This document shows positions 4,091-55,709 of a DNA stretch of 64,000 bases, piece by piece. Numbering within the stretch: the stretch's first letter is position 1; every line of letters begins with the position of its first letter. The notes under the pieces were generated by a model. The model was not told the DNA's origin, searched no databases, and saw only the letters and a program-made list of their open reading frames with translations. Source of the stretch: Rhabdaerophilum calidifontis (GTDB taxonomy: Bacteria > Pseudomonadota > Alphaproteobacteria > Rhizobiales > Beijerinckiaceae); assembly GCF_008641065.1 (NCBI RefSeq), contig NZ_VTRS01000006.1, forward strand, positions 124,001 through 188,000, read 5' to 3'. Position numbers and translations under genes: made by a program.

Positions 4091-4237
4091 GGCTTCCGGT
4101 TCGCTCGCTCGGGTTCGTTCCGCTGAAGCGCCCGCGCCCGCCCGAAGCGGCTGCCGGCTTTCGCCCGTCGGTTGCGGGGGTGATGCTTTCCATTTCTAGC
4201 CGTCTGCCCTATCCAGAACAAGCCGGGCTTGCAGAAG

Positions 4238-4254
4238 GTTTACATATAAACTAT
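4238..4254. promoter_or_regulatory. Candidate operator upstream of ETF-QO
   Basis: GTTTACATATAAACTAT is an AT-rich near-palindrome (core GTTTAYATRTAAAC, 4238-4251) lying 32 bases before the ETF-QO start. The exact reverse complement of all 17 bases occurs at 20244-20260, upstream of the acyl-CoA dehydrogenase operon. An identical 17-base match in DNA this GC-rich, in front of two functionally linked genes, points to a shared transcription factor, probably one that senses fatty-acid or acyl-CoA status. The regulator is not identified in this window. Confidence 0.7.
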
Positions 4255-4285
4255 TATCCGTCCGGCCCGGTGGGGAGGAAAGCGG

Positions 4286-5962
<1,677 letters not shown>

Positions 5963-18066: not shown

Positions 18067-18981
18067 TCAGCCGTCCTCGCCCTCGATGATCTTGCGCTTG
18101 CGGGCGAGTTCGGTGCCGAAGAATTCGAGAAAGGCGCGCACCCGCGCCGCCTTCTTGAGATCCGGATGGGTCAGGACCCAGAGCCCGGTGCTGGAGGTCG
18201 GCCGCAGCGCCGGGATGCGGATCAGCCCCTTGATGCATTCGCCGATGAAGCTCGGCAGCACGCCGATGCCGAGCCCGCTCTCGATCGCGGTGGCGAGCAC
18301 CGAGACCATGTTGACCTTCACGCCGATGCAATCGGGATGGACATTGGCCGCCATCCAGCGCGCGCCCGCGGTCATGGCCAGCGGATCGCCGAGGCCGACC
18401 CAGCGCATCGGCGGCCGCGTCAGCGCCACCGCGTCGTCGAGCGGCAGCTTGAGTTCATGGGCGAGGCCGGTCGAGAGATAGGCATGCCAGGCGATGGTGG
18501 CGACGCGACGGCCGACCAGCGTCTGCGGCGGGTCGATCGCGGCGCGGATCGCGACATCGGCGTCGCGGCGCGACAGGTTGAGCGCGCGGTTATCGATCAC
18601 GAAATCGAGCGTGATCTCGGGATATTTCCGCCGGAACGCGCAGAACATCGGCGCGACGAGATGCGAGAAGATCGTGTCGGTGGTTGTGACCCGCAATTCG
18701 CCGGAGGGGCGGACATCCTGTCCCGCGACGCGCCGTTCGAACTCGACGATCGATTCCGCCATCCGCACCGCGAGCGCAACCATCTCCTCGCCGGCAGAGG
18801 TCAGCATGTAGCCGGTGCGCGCACGCTCGAACACGCGCACGCCGAGCTGTTTCTCCAGCGCGTTGAGGCGGCGGAACACCGTGGAATTGTTGACGCCGAG
18901 CGCATCCGCGGCGCCGCCGAGCGAACGGTGGTCGGCGATGGCGCGGACGAGGCGGAAATCGTCCCAGGCGAGCGGCTGCAT
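18067..18981 (-). CDS. LysR-family transcriptional regulator
   Basis: A 304-residue regulator. Residues about 5-64 form the winged helix-turn-helix (RSLGGAADALGVNNSTVFRRL), and the remainder is the periplasmic-binding-protein-like effector domain. The start at 18981 (MQPLAWDDFRLV) fits the family; a longer frame adds 18 residues without support. The target and ligand are unknown. It ends six bases from the end of the MFS gene. Upstream lies a CG-rich tandem repeat and then the Sua5/TsaC gene, on the same strand. Confidence 0.9.
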   Translation of the reverse strand: MQPLAWDDFRLVRAIADHRSLGGAADALGVNNSTVFRRLNALEKQLGVRVFERARTGYMLTSAGEEMVALAVRMAESIVEFERRVAGQDVRPSGELRVTTTDTIFSHLVAPMFCAFRRKYPEITLDFVIDNRALNLSRRDADVAIRAAIDPPQTLVGRRVATIAWHAYLSTGLAHELKLPLDDAVALTRPPMRWVGLGDPLAMTAGARWMAANVHPDCIGVKVNMVSVLATAIESGLGIGVLPSFIGECIKGLIRIPALRPTSSTGLWVLTHPDLKKAARVRAFLEFFGTELARKRKIIEGEDG

Positions 18982-19060
18982 CGAGACTCCGAAACCCACG
19001 GCGGGGCCAGGACCCGCCGGAAGCACGTCATACAAGTGTCACGGCACGGCAGGCAAGGCC

Positions 19061-20243: not shown

Positions 20244-20260
20244 ATAGTTTATATGTAAAC
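20244..20260. promoter_or_regulatory. Candidate operator upstream of the acyl-CoA dehydrogenase operon
   Basis: ATAGTTTATATGTAAAC is the exact reverse complement of 4238-4254 upstream of ETF-QO. The 14-bp core GTTTATATGTAAAC is palindromic except at the central pair. It lies 107 bases before the GTG start at 20368. The two sites control genes of one electron path, so a common regulator of fatty-acid or acyl-CoA degradation is inferred. Confidence 0.7.
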
Positions 20261-20367: not shown

Positions 20368-22155
20368 GTGACCTATCGCGCGCCGGTCGAGGATATTCTG
20401 TTCGCGATGCGCCATGCCGCCGGGCTTGAGCGCGGGATCGAGAGCGGGCTCTACGCCGATCTCGCCGATGGCGCCGCCGAGGCGGTGCTCGAGGAGGCGG
20501 CGAAATTCGCCGAGGCGCGGATCGCGCCGCTCAACCGCACCGGCGACCGGGAGATGGCCCGCCTCGTCGACGGCCGGGTGGTCATGCCGGAAGGGTTCGC
20601 GGAGACCTATCGCGATTGGGCGGCGGGGGGCTGGCTGGGGGTCGCGGCCGCGCCGGAATTCGGCGGCCAGGGCCTGCCGGTCCTGCTCAACATCGCCTGC
20701 ACCGAGATGTGGAACGCGGCGAACCTCGCCTTCGCGCTCAACCCGCTGCTCACCATGGGCGCGATCGAGGCGCTGACGGCGCATGGCTCGGATACGCTGA
20801 AGGCGACCTATCTTGAGAAGATGATCGCCGGGGAATGGACCGGCACGATGAACCTGACCGAGCCGGCGGCCGGCTCGGATCTCAACCTGCTGACCGCGCG
20901 GGCCGAACCGGCGGGCGACGGCAGCTACCGCATCTTCGGCAGCAAGATCTTCATTACCTATGGCGATCACGAGATGACGGAGAACATCGTCCATCTCGTG
21001 CTCGCGCGGCTGCCGGACGCGCCGCCCGGCACGCGCGGCATCTCGCTGTTCCTGGTCCCGAAATTCCTCGTCAACGCCGATGGCTCGCTCGGCGCGCGCA
21101 ACGATCTGCGCTGCCATGCCCTCGAACACAAGCTCGGCATCCACGCTTCCCCGACCGCGACCATGATCTATGGCGATAGGGGTGGCGCCATCGGCTGGCT
21201 GGTCGGCGAGGAGAACAAGGGCCTCGCCTGCATGTTCACGATGATGAACAATGCCCGCCTGGCGGTGGGCGTCCAGGGCGTGGCGGTGGCCGAGCGTGCC
21301 TATCAGCAGGCGCTCGGCTATGCGCGGGAGCGCCGGCAGGGCCGGGCGACCGGCGCTTCTGCGGCCTCGCCGATCATCGCGCATCCGGATGTCAAGCGCA
21401 TGCTGCTCGAAATGCGCGCGAAGACCGCCGCCGCGCGTGCGCTCTGCCTGGCGACCGCCGCCGCGCTCGACCGCCACCACCGCGCCGGAGATGCCGAGGC
21501 GGAGCGGATCGCGCACGAGGAGGCGAGCCTGCTGACCCCGATCGCCAAGGCGTTCTCGACCGATATCGGCATCGAGGTCGCCTCGCTCGGCGTGCAGATC
21601 CATGGCGGCATGGGCTTCGTCGAGGAGACCGGGGCGGCCCAGCATTACCGCGATGCGCGCATCCTTCCGATCTACGAGGGCACCAACGGCATCCAGGCGA
21701 TCGATCTCGTGACGCGCAAGCTGCCGCTCTCCGGCGGGGCGCGCGTCGCGGCGATGATCGCGGAGTGCCGCCGCTCGGCCGAGGCGGCCGCCGCGGTCAA
21801 CGAACCCGGCTTCGGGCGCATGGGCGCGCGCCTCGGCGAGGCGGTCGACGCGCTCGAACGCGCGACGCGCTTCATGCTCGACAATCTCAAGGCCCGGCCC
21901 GACACCGCACTCGCCGGCGCGACGCCCTATCTCCGGCTCTTCGCGCTGGCCGCCGGCGGCGCGCGCCTTGCCGATCAGGCCTTGGCCGCGCGGGCGGCGC
22001 TTGCCGCGGGTGAGACCGATCCGCGCCATGCCCGGCGCATCGGCGATGCCCGTTTCTTCGCCGAGAATGTTGCGAGCGGCGCCGGCGGGCTCGAGATCGC
22101 GGTGCTCGAAGGCGGCGAGGCCGTCAATGCCGCCTTCCAAGATGCGGCGGAGTGA
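20368..22155 (+). CDS. Acyl-CoA dehydrogenase (long C-terminal-domain type)
   Basis: A 595-residue FAD enzyme that oxidises acyl-CoA to enoyl-CoA and passes electrons to ETF. It has the N-terminal domain, MNLTEPAAGSDLN (substrate/FAD motif), QIHGGMGF, and IYEGTNGIQAIDL, where the Glu near residue 437 is the expected catalytic base. An extra C-terminal domain of about 120 residues is typical of this long subgroup. The start is taken as GTG at 20368 (TYRAPVEDILF), with GGAGGGA seven bases upstream; a TTG at 20308 is less likely. It is the first gene of an operon with an enoyl-CoA hydratase and an SDR, behind the operator shared with ETF-QO. Confidence 0.94.
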   Translation: MTYRAPVEDILFAMRHAAGLERGIESGLYADLADGAAEAVLEEAAKFAEARIAPLNRTGDREMARLVDGRVVMPEGFAETYRDWAAGGWLGVAAAPEFGGQGLPVLLNIACTEMWNAANLAFALNPLLTMGAIEALTAHGSDTLKATYLEKMIAGEWTGTMNLTEPAAGSDLNLLTARAEPAGDGSYRIFGSKIFITYGDHEMTENIVHLVLARLPDAPPGTRGISLFLVPKFLVNADGSLGARNDLRCHALEHKLGIHASPTATMIYGDRGGAIGWLVGEENKGLACMFTMMNNARLAVGVQGVAVAERAYQQALGYARERRQGRATGASAASPIIAHPDVKRMLLEMRAKTAAARALCLATAAALDRHHRAGDAEAERIAHEEASLLTPIAKAFSTDIGIEVASLGVQIHGGMGFVEETGAAQHYRDARILPIYEGTNGIQAIDLVTRKLPLSGGARVAAMIAECRRSAEAAAAVNEPGFGRMGARLGEAVDALERATRFMLDNLKARPDTALAGATPYLRLFALAAGGARLADQALAARAALAAGETDPRHARRIGDARFFAENVASGAGGLEIAVLEGGEAVNAAFQDAAE

Positions 22156-22159
22156 GAGC

Positions 22160-22912
22160 ATGACCGGGAATGTCGTCCAGCGGCGCGAAGGCGCCGTCCT
22201 AGTCCTGACGCTCGACCGCGCCGACAAGAAGAACGCGCTGACCGGCGACATGTATCGCGCGCTGAGCGCCGGCCTCGCGGACGCCAATGCCGACCCCGCC
22301 ATCGGCGCGACGCTGATCCTCGGCCAGCCGGGCATCTTCTGCGCAGGCAACGACATCAAGGATTTCGTCGGCTTCGCGATGTCGGGCAGCCTGGGCGAGC
22401 CGATCCTCGCCTTCCTGCGCGCGCTCGTCGCCAATGCGAAGCCGCTCGTTGCAGGCATCGACGGCGCCGCCATCGGCATCGGCACCACCCTGGTCCTGCA
22501 TTGCGATTACGCCGTGGCGAGCGAGCGGGCGCTGTTCCAGACGCCCTTCGTCGATCTCGCCCTGGTGCCCGAGGCCGGTTCGAGCCTCATCCTGCCCCAG
22601 CTCATGGGCCAGCGCCTCGCCTTCGAGATGCTGGTGATGGGCGAGAAGTTCGACGCGGACCGCGCGGCGGCCACCGGCCTTGTCAACCGCGTCGTCGCGG
22701 CCGAGACGCTCGAAGCCGCCGCGATCGACGCCGCCCGGCGCATCGCCGCCAAGCCGCGCGAGGCGACGATGATCGCCAGGGCGCTGATGCGCGGCGATCC
22801 CGCCGCGCTGCTCGCACGGATCGACGCGGAGGCCAGCGCCTTCGCCGAGCGTCTGCGCTCCGACGAGGCCCGGCGGGCCTTCGAGGCGTTCCTGTCGAAA
22901 GGCAAGGGATGA
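22160..22912 (+). CDS. Enoyl-CoA hydratase/isomerase family protein
   Basis: A 250-residue crotonase-fold protein in the acyl-CoA dehydrogenase operon. The oxyanion-hole segment is FCAGNDIKDF. Of the two Glu used by classical enoyl-CoA hydratases, the second is present (PEAGSS), but the first position falls in GIGTTL, where Thr replaces Glu. That pattern is more usual in enoyl-CoA isomerases, so it may shift double bonds rather than add water. The ATG at 22160 begins four bases after the dehydrogenase stop. An SDR gene follows 51 bases later. Confidence 0.88.
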   Translation: MTGNVVQRREGAVLVLTLDRADKKNALTGDMYRALSAGLADANADPAIGATLILGQPGIFCAGNDIKDFVGFAMSGSLGEPILAFLRALVANAKPLVAGIDGAAIGIGTTLVLHCDYAVASERALFQTPFVDLALVPEAGSSLILPQLMGQRLAFEMLVMGEKFDADRAAATGLVNRVVAAETLEAAAIDAARRIAAKPREATMIARALMRGDPAALLARIDAEASAFAERLRSDEARRAFEAFLSKGKG

Positions 22913-22963
22913 GCCGGGGCCCGATCTCCGCCGCCGAATGCAATGCCGTCTGAAAGGTGCGCC

Positions 22964-23830
22964 ATGAGCCTCCACGCAAAGACCCTCTTCATCACCGGTG
23001 CCTCGCGCGGCATTGGCCTCGCGATCGCGCTGCGCGCGGCGCGGGACGGCGCGAATATCGTCGTCGCCGCCAAGACCGCGGAACCGCATCCGAAGCTCGA
23101 GGGCACGATCTTCACCGCCGCCGACGCGATCGAGAAGGCCGGCGGCAGGGCGCTTCCGATCGCGCTCGATATCCGCGACGACGCCGCGACCGAGGCGGCG
23201 ATGGCGAAGGCCGCGCAGCATTTCGGCGGCATCGACATCGTCGTCAACAATGCGAGCGCGATCAACCTCGCCCCGGTCGCGGCGCTGGAGATGAAGCGCT
23301 TCGACCTCATGCACCAGATCAACGCGCGCGGCACCTATCTCGTCTCGCGCACGGCGCTTCCCTATCTCGCGAAGGCCGCGAACCCGCATATCCTGATGCT
23401 GTCGCCGCCGCTTGACATGAAGGAGAAATGGTTCGCCGGCCATACTGGCTACTCGATGGCGAAATTCGGCATGAGCCTTGTCGTGCTCGGCCTTGCCGGG
23501 GAGACGCGCGGCCGCATCGGCGTCAATGCGCTCTGGCCGCGCACCACCATCGCCACGGCGGCGGTTCGCAACATCCTCGGCGGTGATGAACTGATGCGCG
23601 CCTCGCGCATGCCGGATATCTTGGCCGATGCGGCCTATGCGGTTTTCAACAAGGACGCGAAGACCTTCACCGGCCATTTCCTGATCGACGACACCTTCCT
23701 CGCCGGCGAGGGTGTGACCGACTTCGATCCTTACCGCGCCGATCCCACCCATGCGCTCGCGCCGGATTTCTTCGTGCCGGACGATATCCCGCCGCCGCCG
23801 ACCGCGCGCTTCGGGCCGCTCAAGGCGTGA
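22964..23830 (+). CDS. HSDL2-like short-chain dehydrogenase
   Basis: A 288-residue SDR close to hydroxysteroid-dehydrogenase-like protein 2 of peroxisomes. The cofactor motif is TGASRGIG (residues 11-18), the catalytic motif is YSMAK, and the unusual DFFVPDDIPPP stretch near the C-terminus occurs in this subgroup. The substrate is probably a lipid-derived hydroxy or keto acyl compound, given its place after acyl-CoA dehydrogenase and enoyl-CoA hydratase. The start at 22964 has GAAAGG nine bases upstream; an in-frame ATG at 22943 is less well placed. Confidence 0.88.
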   Translation: MSLHAKTLFITGASRGIGLAIALRAARDGANIVVAAKTAEPHPKLEGTIFTAADAIEKAGGRALPIALDIRDDAATEAAMAKAAQHFGGIDIVVNNASAINLAPVAALEMKRFDLMHQINARGTYLVSRTALPYLAKAANPHILMLSPPLDMKEKWFAGHTGYSMAKFGMSLVVLGLAGETRGRIGVNALWPRTTIATAAVRNILGGDELMRASRMPDILADAAYAVFNKDAKTFTGHFLIDDTFLAGEGVTDFDPYRADPTHALAPDFFVPDDIPPPPTARFGPLKA

Positions 23831-53421: not shown

Positions 53422-53619
53422 TCAGTCGTGATCGGGCTGCGGCATCGGCCGGGAGGGCGCCGTGCCGGTGCGGCGCGGGCGCGCGGCGGCGGCCAGCGCC
53501 GGCAGCGCGATCGAGCGGTAGTTCCGGGCGACATGCTCCCGGACCGCGACGCGCTCGCGCGCGATATGGATCTCTTCCTGGTTGCGAATGGCTTCGGCAA
53601 GAATCGAGGCCGGCATCAT
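53422..53619 (-). CDS. Small hypothetical protein (candidate)
   Basis: A possible 65-residue protein in the 417-base space between the L,D-transpeptidase and MarR genes. Codon third positions are almost all G/C, as in real genes here, and AGGAAGGA lies nine bases before ATG-ATG at 53619. The product would be a basic helix (SILAEAIRNQEEIHIARERVAVREHVARNYR, seen in parts) with a Pro/Arg-rich tail, no signal and no domain. A longer frame to 53691 also exists. No function is suggested. The rest of the space holds the weak hairpin at 53336 and nothing else recognised. Confidence 0.45.
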   Translation of the reverse strand: MMPASILAEAIRNQEEIHIARERVAVREHVARNYRSIALPALAAAARPRRTGTAPSRPMPQPDHD

Positions 53620-53744
53620 CTCAATCTGTCCTTCCTGGCACGGCCGGACGATCCGCCGACCATCGGGAAGAGAAACCCGAGGATGATGCAATCCGTTCGG
53701 CCGAATTGTGGAAAAAGCGCGGCCCGAGATCGCGCGATCCTGCG

Positions 53745-54260
53745 TCAGGCCGTTCTACGTGCCTTGGGCTCGCCCTGAGCCGGGCCCGCCTCCGCAACGG
53801 TCGTGGCGGCCTCGCTCTGTTCGAGCGCGCGAAACGTGTCGCGCCAGCGGCTGATCACCTGGTCGAGATATTCGAGATCGACATCCTTCAGGCGGCCGAT
53901 GGTCTCGGTGACGAAGACCTGCTGCACCTGCATCCCCGCCTGCGCCGCCTGGCGGCCCTCGGTGGTGAGATGCAGCGCGTAGGAGCGCCGGTCGCCGGGG
54001 ATCGCGCGGCGGTCGACGAGCCCGGCCTCGACAAGCCGGTCGACAAGGCCCGAGACATTGCCCTTGGTGACATAGAGCCGCTCGGCGAGGTCACGCTGGG
54101 TGATGCCCTCGGCTTCGGTCAGGGTCGAGAGCAGGTCGAACTGGGCAATCGACAACCCGAGCCGCCGAAGCCGCTGTGACATCGCGGCGTGGCCGCGCTG
54201 GTGAAGCCGCAGGAACCGGAACCAGATCCTCGCGGGCGTGACGGCTGGACGTTCGGACAT
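53745..54260 (-). CDS. MarR-family transcriptional regulator
   Basis: A 171-residue winged-helix regulator. The DNA-binding part is around residues 45-110 (SIAQFDLLSTLTEAEGITQRDLAERLYVTKGNVSGLVDRL, seen in parts, then the wing with GDRRSY). It normally represses itself and neighbours and responds to small phenolic or lipophilic compounds. The start at 54260 has AGAAGGA seven bases upstream; a second possible ATG is at 54278. TTGACA occurs on the minus strand at 54306-54311, 46 bases before the start, and may be a -35 element. It diverges from DUF898 across 210 bases. Confidence 0.9.
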   Translation of the reverse strand: MSERPAVTPARIWFRFLRLHQRGHAAMSQRLRRLGLSIAQFDLLSTLTEAEGITQRDLAERLYVTKGNVSGLVDRLVEAGLVDRRAIPGDRRSYALHLTTEGRQAAQAGMQVQQVFVTETIGRLKDVDLEYLDQVISRWRDTFRALEQSEAATTVAEAGPAQGEPKARRTA

Positions 54261-54470
54261 ATGATATCCTTCTACCATACTGGCTTTTGTGATGATAGCC
54301 GTTCTTGTCAATCCGGTTTTGCGATGCTGTGCGGCGGCGCATGGCTTTTCCTGACGATGCTTGTCCGTCTGCCGGTTTTCCTTGGGGCGCTTTTCCTCGG
54401 GCGGCGCGCGTGCGACAAGCGTGCCGGAGTTGGGGAAACGCGGGCGACGGGAACGGGTTTGGGTGGCGCG

Positions 54471-55709
54471 ATGGTGCATGTTCCGACGATCACCCGCGCC
54501 TGGGCGGTGGCGCCTGTGCCAAGCGCCCCGGCATCTTCGGGGGAGCCGGCCGGCCGGCGGCTCGAACCGGTTGATGCGCCGCTGGCCGGGCTGGTGCTCC
54601 GGGGACTGGTGCTGACCTTCGCGACGCTGGGGCTCTACCGCTTCTGGTATCGCACCGCCCTGCGGCGGTATTACTGGGGCCAGACCCGGCTCCTCGGCGA
54701 TGCCTTCGAATATACGGGGACCGGCCGGGAATTGTTCATCGGCTTCCTGATCGCGCTGGCGATCATCGTGCCGATCAACCTTGCCGTCACGCTGCTCGGT
54801 CTGTTCGGCGGGGCGCTATTCGGGCCGTTCCTCTCCTCCTTCGTTGCCCTCGTGCTGGTGCCGGCCCTGGTGCAGATCGCGCTCTACCGGGCGCGGCGTT
54901 ATCGGCTGTCGCGCACCCGGTTCCGCGGCATCCGCTTCCGCCAGGGCGGCACCGGCACGGCCTATCTCGCGCGGACGGTGAAATGGCTGCTGATCGCCGG
55001 CGCGACATTCGGCATCCTGCTGCCCTATCTGCGCGCCGCGCAGGAGCGCTACAAGATCGACAACACCTGGTTCGGCTCGGCGCAAGGCGCGTTCGAGGCG
55101 CGCATCCGCCCGCTGATGGGGCCGTGGATCGCCTGCTGGCTCACGGCGCTCTGCACGCTGGCCGGGTTCGCGGCCGCGATCCTGATGCTGCTTGGCGGCA
55201 ATGTCGCGCTCGCGGCGGGCGCGGCCCTTTTCGGCGGCCTCGCTCTCATCACGTTGCCCTTCCTGTGGATGAATTACCGGGTGCGGGAATTCCGGGCCTT
55301 CACCGGCGGCACGCGGCTCGGGCCGCTGGCCTTCCGTGCCGATCTCGCCCTCTGGCCGGTGATCGGGATCTTCCTGCGCTATGCTCTCGCGCTGGGGCTG
55401 GTCGTCCTGGCCGCCGCCGCCGCTCTTCTCGCGGGGGGCGGCGCGGATGCTGGCGTCGAGGGCGCCGCCGAGGCGCTGGCGCGATCGGGGCCCGGCGGGT
55501 GGATCGTGCTCGCGGGCGGCGCGCTCGCCGCGCTGCTCGCCGCAGCCTTTCTCGGGGAGTTCCTGCTGCGGCGGCCGCTCTGGCGGCGCATGGCGGCCTC
55601 GGTGACGGTGCTGAACGCCGCCGCGCTCGATGCGATCGTCCAGACCGCGCAGCAGGATTCGCGCGGCATCGGCGAGGCTTTCGACACCGGCTTCGATCTC
55701 CCGGTATGA
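54471..55709 (+). CDS. DUF898 (YjgN-family) membrane protein
   Basis: A 412-residue integral membrane protein with about eight hydrophobic segments. LRGLVLTFATLGLYRFWYRTALRRYYW, the repeated Arg-rich loops and YKIDNTWFGSAQGAFEA are typical of DUF898 (YjgN). Function is not established. It overlaps the M48 metallopeptidase gene by four bases (ATGA), a conserved pairing in Hyphomicrobiales that suggests a joint envelope role. The start at 54471 is the ATG nearest the domain; the frame is open to 54189, but that region is the MarR promoter and gene. No strong ribosome site is seen. Confidence 0.85.
   Translation: MVHVPTITRAWAVAPVPSAPASSGEPAGRRLEPVDAPLAGLVLRGLVLTFATLGLYRFWYRTALRRYYWGQTRLLGDAFEYTGTGRELFIGFLIALAIIVPINLAVTLLGLFGGALFGPFLSSFVALVLVPALVQIALYRARRYRLSRTRFRGIRFRQGGTGTAYLARTVKWLLIAGATFGILLPYLRAAQERYKIDNTWFGSAQGAFEARIRPLMGPWIACWLTALCTLAGFAAAILMLLGGNVALAAGAALFGGLALITLPFLWMNYRVREFRAFTGGTRLGPLAFRADLALWPVIGIFLRYALALGLVVLAAAAALLAGGGADAGVEGAAEALARSGPGGWIVLAGGALAALLAAAFLGEFLLRRPLWRRMAASVTVLNAAALDAIVQTAQQDSRGIGEAFDTGFDLPV

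Follow-up and report, generated by a model that had tools for sequence, protein, structure and literature searches.

A probable shared operator of beta-oxidation and ETF operons in Rhabdaerophilum and its family, and a candidate MarR-type regulator

Closest described regulators

Acyl-CoA is the inducer of FadR, the PsrA box has AAAC placed before GTTT, and the regulons of PsrA and FadP include ETF genes. According to the part of a survey of proteobacterial regulons used here, fatty-acid degradation is controlled by FadR, PsrA or FadP (PMC5343134). The regulon described below is similar in that, as for FadR of Escherichia coli, a single regulator would serve dispersed fad operons and, as for the PsrA and FadP regulons of gamma- and betaproteobacteria, control would be of the repressor type and genome-wide over fatty-acid degradation genes (same part of PMC5343134). 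By contrast, PsrA and FadP are TetR proteins and FadR belongs to the GntR family, whereas the candidate here is a winged-helix protein of the MarR family with the box GTTYAYATRTRAAC. The FadR box differs from this box as well.

Among MarR proteins, CouR and FerC are repressors released by aryl-CoA thioesters according to the sections consulted of PMC5487221, and a CoA-thioester inducer is proposed here too; CouR moreover has the MarR fold in common with the protein studied here (5cyv among the structural matches). Both, however, control local aromatic-acid operons, whereas the regulon here is one of dispersed beta-oxidation genes. FabT of streptococci is described in the same sections as a lipid-sensing MarR protein (PMC5487221). 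Its ligand is acyl-ACP and its targets are genes of fatty-acid synthesis, whereas the target here is beta-oxidation; our protein matches FabT weakly in NCBIfam, far below the cut-off. TtmR (Mext_0925) of Methylobacterium extorquens, from the same bacterial family as our host, is MarR-like and is described for the formaldehyde response (PMC8153426, PMC12180729, both in extract), and in the extracts used for CstR and TtmR of Methylobacterium no mention of fatty acids or beta-oxidation was found. Among openly licensed papers we found none with GTTTACATATAAAC, and in the same literature, subscription papers being outside the scope, no description of a MarR regulon of this kind.

The window, i.e. 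the whole 64,000-nucleotide stretch of Rhabdaerophilum DNA analysed here, contains two 17-bp repeats that are, with high probability, two operators of a beta-oxidation regulon, most likely bound and repressed by a MarR protein encoded in the same window and released by a CoA thioester. By comparison of sequences, the sites, their predicted targets, their conservation and their co-occurrence with the MarR gene are established.

Operator sites in the window and in the genome

The copy GTTTACATATAAACTAT at positions 4238-4254 and the copy ATAGTTTATATGTAAAC at 20244-20260 were both read directly and the second is the exact reverse complement of the first, as the first-pass annotation had it. That annotation had also placed each copy in the promoter region of a gene of one pathway. 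Operator 1 has its 14-bp core GTTTACATATAAAC at 4238-4251 on the plus strand, with an extended half-palindrome to 4254, and the core ends 34 bp before the ATG (4286) of etfD, which encodes ETF-ubiquinone oxidoreductase (ETF-QO; 4286-5962, plus strand; PF05187 and PF21162); orthologous sites precede ETF-QO genes in relatives. Operator 2 has the same core at 20247-20260 on the minus strand, with its extended half-palindrome at 20244-20246, and sits in the divergent region between a sua5-like gene and an acyl-CoA dehydrogenase gene (called acdh2 here; 20368-22155, plus strand; PF00441, PF12806, PF02771 and PF02770), whose plus-strand operon it serves and before which orthologous sites occur in relatives. 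The GTG start of acdh2 (20368), 107 bp from the end of the core, was picked from the sequence by the ribosome-binding-like GGAGGGAA just upstream. The operon continues with an enoyl-CoA hydratase gene (22160-22912, plus strand; PF00378, NF004681 above cut-off; start estimated from the domain match) and a short-chain dehydrogenase (SDR) gene (22943-23830, plus strand; PF00106).

Only operators 1 and 2 match the 14-bp core exactly in the window, where 4 matches at up to 3 mismatches compare with 0.08 expected from 100 shuffles. Using GTTTAYATRTAAAC on the whole genome (3.09 Mb, 19 contigs), we found 7 sites at up to 2 mismatches and 0 for the control pattern read backwards; at up to 3 mismatches the pattern gave 23 sites against 21 for the control, and the 16 extra sites were therefore dropped as noise and the 7 sites used. 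A chance origin of the sites was rejected by the shuffles and the reversed-pattern control.

Beta-oxidation and ETF operons are headed by 5 of the 7 sites. Site 1 (contig C1) precedes fadE, followed by a thiolase gene and a FadB-like gene (fadE-fadA-fadB); sites 2 and 3 are the window operators (4238 and 20247), before etfD and before the genes for acyl-CoA dehydrogenase, enoyl-CoA hydratase and SDR, respectively; site 4 (contig C19) precedes etfB-etfA and then a 3-hydroxybutyryl-CoA dehydrogenase-like gene (hbd); and site 5 (contig C11) precedes fadD, an AMP-binding ligase gene. Site 6 (contig C12) lies before a DUF2147 gene and site 7 (contig C17) before a 128-residue gene, weakly DUF2780-like, that is divergent from a DUF853-like ATPase gene. 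Targets were placed by reading the flanking genes and the main ones by Pfam; the names thiolase, FadB, hbd and DUF853 come from reading of the translations.

Alignment of 57 sites by target direction showed conserved flanks, with A-T before the core and T-A-T after it, an A standing at the second position after the core in 52 of the 57, and the operator therefore comes close to the palindromic 20-mer ATAGTTYAYATRTRAACTAT, in which the central 14 bp form a strong core; each window copy has 2 mismatches to this 20-mer. The 17-bp repeat first described is confirmed, and the operator is extended to about 20 bp with a 14-bp core. At many targets the predicted -10 element or spacer overlaps the operator core (by a consensus score, used without a control set), which suggests repression by occlusion. 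Around operator 1, consensus scoring predicts a promoter at 4229-4257 (plus strand), with TTGCAG at 4229-4234, a 17-bp spacer containing the operator and TATTAT at 4252-4257.

The AT-richness of the sites and their overlap with predicted -10 elements could also mean that the two copies are chance, or an AT-rich promoter element in common use with no dedicated regulator. We give this explanation almost no weight, against the 7 genome sites and 0 for the control, the palindromic covariation of the two operator halves, whose free Y/R positions stand solely at symmetric places, and the site counts, which are at background in genomes where the MarR gene is absent (see below).

Conservation of the sites and of their targets

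At up to 1 mismatch, at least one GTTYAYATRTRAAC site was present in 48 of 60 genomes of the family. Exact GTTYAYATRTRAAC sites occurred in 9 of 150 genomes of the order, namely the 5 family members drawn and 4 others with one copy each; for these 4 (out of 145 non-family genomes, one copy of the 14-bp motif in each) a reference search indicated that the adjoining genes are not beta-oxidation genes. The exact 17-mer is nearly limited to the family across 289 genomes of the class, as GTTYAYATRTRAACTAT was found in 5 of them, namely in 3 out of 4 sampled family members and, as a single copy, in each of 2 unrelated genomes.

We then considered the genes behind 86 sites with at most 1 mismatch, taken from selected loci and making up part of all the sites of the 60 family genomes. 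In the 34 genomes that bear the MarR gene, 47 of the 52 exact sites examined precede core genes (etfD, fadE, acdh2, etfB, fadD, tesB or fadL), or 45 of 52 without tesB and fadL, whose references were themselves taken from sites. The other 5 comprise 1 site before a DUF2147 gene and 4 to which the test assigned no core or DUF target: one before a gene for an XRE-shikimate-kinase regulator (L015), one before a phasin-like gene (L048), one with etfB at about 2.5 kb (L066) and one with nothing clear (L071). The 23 1-mismatch sites of the same genomes divide into 9 core, 8 DUF and 6 other. Where no MarR ortholog was present, 4 of 5 exact sites were core (3 in genome G170 and 1 in G189) and 0 of 6 1-mismatch sites. 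A further set gave 6 core among 8 exact sites in MarR-bearing genomes, plus one exact fadE site in G204.

A regulon for beta-oxidation electron flow had been proposed from the two copies. The regulon is supported (5 of 7 sites in the genome, 47 of 52 in relatives), but its scope is the whole beta-oxidation pathway and not electron flow alone. The operator recurs before etfB-etfA, fadE, fadD, the second acyl-CoA dehydrogenase gene and the ETF-QO gene, in the same genome and in many genera of the family; scattered copies are few and the sites are conserved in related genomes.

The candidate MarR regulator

No regulator was seen beside the sites in the loci first examined. The route to a candidate was given by genomes G197 and G203, in which 1-mismatch sites lie directly before a MarR gene divergent from a gene for an AMP-binding acyl-CoA ligase. 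A protein search located the ortholog of our genome within the window (C16:177820-178245, minus strand), where by reading of its start and end the gene occupies 53745-54260 on the minus strand, the stop codon being at 53745-53747. The protein matches PF12802 (E 3.6e-19) and PF01047 (E 1.4e-17), both above the curated cut-off, with no TetR_N and no GntR match in Pfam at E <= 0.001 and no NCBIfam equivalog above cut-off (FabT equivalog, 33 bits for a cut-off of 200). Its closest solved sequence is 3boq (E 3e-15, residues 9-129), likewise of the MarR family, for which the PDB molecule name gives no function. The monomer model (mean pLDDT 94) shows the MarR fold, including the terminal helices through which a dimer would form. 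Its matches in the PDB number 330 (E <= 0.001), and nearly all of the 50 best are named as MarR-type; the matches include FabT with DNA (6jbx) and CouR with p-coumaroyl-CoA (5cyv). The recognition region contains a stretch, ERLYVTKGN.SGL, that hardly varies across 25 MarR orthologs.

The MarR gene and an acyl-CoA ligase gene form a divergent pair in 11 of 30 family loci and in 40 of 80 named loci (the best 80 of 266), in one of these at a distance of 1.5 kb, and the divergent ligase matches NF004674, a long-chain-fatty-acid--CoA ligase, above cut-off. The named loci, collected with a MarR profile, include many Bosea and Methylobacterium and are thus not independent. Among the matches listed, MarR-bearing loci come from Beijerinckiaceae bacteria, Bosea, Methylobacterium, Microvirga, Chelatococcus and Rhabdaerophilum, and we take the five named genera to be one GTDB family.

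The operator was expected by the first-pass annotation to recur before a regulator gene of TetR or MarR type, and in relatives it does so before MarR: a site at up to 3 mismatches lies within 300 bp upstream of the gene in 29 of the best 80 of 266 named loci (8 at 1, 13 at 2 and 8 at 3 mismatches), against 0 of 80 for the reversed control and 33 of 2000 random 330-bp windows from the same loci. The corresponding figures for the family loci are 7 of 30 and, for the control, 1 of 30, to which G166 adds one. The own MarR gene of the window has no site at up to 4 mismatches (53601-55200), none at up to 3 mismatches was found before the MarR genes of its 15 nearest relatives among the named loci listed (L134-L148), and alignment of the upstream regions of these 15 loci and of the own gene gave no conserved operator copy; MarR autoregulation is therefore not general.

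In the 60 family genomes, the MarR search gave 35 matches at E <= 1e-20, of which 34 (E <= 6.7e-43) were counted as orthologs and that of G180 (1.1e-21) was left out. The mean number of sites is 4.68 in the 34 MarR-bearing genomes (reversed control 0.97) and 0.92 in the 26 others (control 0.92), with P 2.9e-8 and an AUC of 0.91, or an AUC of 0.94 with genera as units (23 vs 18, 2 mixed); as the genomes are related and the tests ignore the tree, these P values are too small. In the order sample of 150 genomes, the 5 that carry at least two exact sites are the very ones in which a strong MarR ortholog (E below 1e-66) is present; the match that follows stands at 1.9e-29. Exceptions are G170 and G204 (drafts 92 and 95% complete), each with 4 sites but a best MarR homolog that is weak (E 1.5e-20 and 2.9e-21, respectively), G189, with an exact site before fadE and a weak homolog (4.9e-29), and G198, with a MarR ortholog and no site; G170, G204, G198 and others remained exceptions when rechecked with the MarR profile and, for some, site by site.

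A real regulon in which another regulator (TetR, the LysR beside sua5-acdh2, GntR or XRE) occupies the operator and MarR merely shares its distribution appears improbable to us. It would agree with the site-free MarR gene of the window, and shared descent within the family is a confounder of any co-occurrence; in several genomes the acdh2 site also has a LysR gene as its neighbour, the site GTTTACATATGAAC of locus L015 in G042 precedes the gene for the XRE-shikimate-kinase regulator, and reading of the genome's 8 TetR genes revealed weak sites around one (L080) and a weak GTCTAGATGTGAAC upstream of another (L077). Co-occurrence was compared for MarR, the window LysR (18067-19035) and one of the 8 TetR genes (L080, contig C11), the presence cut-offs of the two rivals being set by eye from the lists of E-values (near 1e-50 for LysR and near 1e-35 for TetR). 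Both track the sites much worse than MarR (AUC 0.75 for LysR and 0.72 for TetR vs 0.91) and were rejected as the regulator for this poorer fit. Furthermore, sites before MarR orthologs are far above controls, and no regulator besides MarR recurred among the sites examined.

That the MarR protein would repress the whole pathway, with acyl-CoA as its inducer, is what we infer from the position of the operator, the divergent acyl-CoA ligase and the CoA-thioester precedent of CouR and FerC. The dimeric MarR protein (53745-54260) would bind the roughly 20-bp palindrome, which lies inside or next to the core promoters of etfD, fadE-fadA-fadB, acdh2-ech-SDR, etfB-etfA-hbd, fadD and the DUF2147 and weakly DUF2780-like genes, and would exclude RNA polymerase from these promoters. 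A CoA thioester made from fatty acids would release it, and uptake, activation, oxidation and the electron path from ETF to ETF-QO would be switched on together. Rather unlikely, in our estimate, is that MarR activates these promoters, or represses them with acyl-ACP or a free fatty acid as ligand rather than acyl-CoA: some MarR proteins are activators, and acyl-ACP improves DNA binding by FabT (PMC5487221, in the sections consulted), but at many targets the predicted -10 or spacer is overlapped or directly adjoined by the operator, which fits repression, the divergent partner gene encodes an acyl-CoA ligase, and CouR and FerC are induced by CoA thioesters (same sections of PMC5487221).

We lean slightly towards a wider reading, in which an acyl-CoA-sensing MarR master regulator has replaced the role of FadR, PsrA or FadP in one large alphaproteobacterial family, couples uptake, activation and oxidation to ETF-QO and has recruited the DUF2147 and 128-residue families into lipid catabolism. 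For a family that includes laboratory methylotrophs and soil bacteria, and in which the openly licensed papers searched gave us no such description, this would name the regulator, the operator and the targets of fatty-acid oxidation. It would be a further case of a single pathway passed to an unrelated regulator family, and it predicts that two uncharacterised families (DUF2147 and the weakly DUF2780-like 128-residue proteins) take part in the use of lipids. As acyl-CoA-responsive parts are useful as sensors, operator and regulator might also be built into a biosensor, should the inferred ligand prove correct.

Targets outside the core pathway

The exact site in L015 (G042; L015:460-1501) lies 87 bp upstream of the gene for the XRE-shikimate-kinase regulator, which is of the BoxR/BzdR type, and may constitute a regulatory link to aryl-CoA metabolism. 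In G150, the exact site precedes a gene (L048:1501-2052) with a sub-threshold phasin match (PF09361, 21.9 vs 24.9 bits), a target that would link polyhydroxyalkanoate granules to the regulon in this genome. The interval of about 2.5 kb between operator and etfB in G161 (L066:4001-6600) contains a gene that matches HTH_38 weakly, which could point to a mobile element.

Two targets recur: counting our own genome, a site precedes a DUF2147 gene in 4 genomes and the gene for the 128-residue protein in 5. The 128-residue gene of our genome (L012:7473-7859) has counterparts in L089, L093, L098 and L102 and is found near DUF853-like or methylmalonyl-CoA-mutase-like genes; its protein matches DUF2780 below threshold (23.8 bits, cut-off 27.5), and those of L093 and L102 have no Pfam match. 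The DUF2147 gene (L011:7266-7715), which encodes a secreted-looking protein, is also a target in L090, L094 and L100. About 1.1 kb from its operator, on contig C12 of our genome, a very long CRISPR-like array (L011:8865-16001), which continues up to the end of the stretch examined, carries a 28-nt repeat, GGCCTATCCCCGCGAGCGCGGGGGAACC, with a period of 61 bp and at least 114 copies in register.
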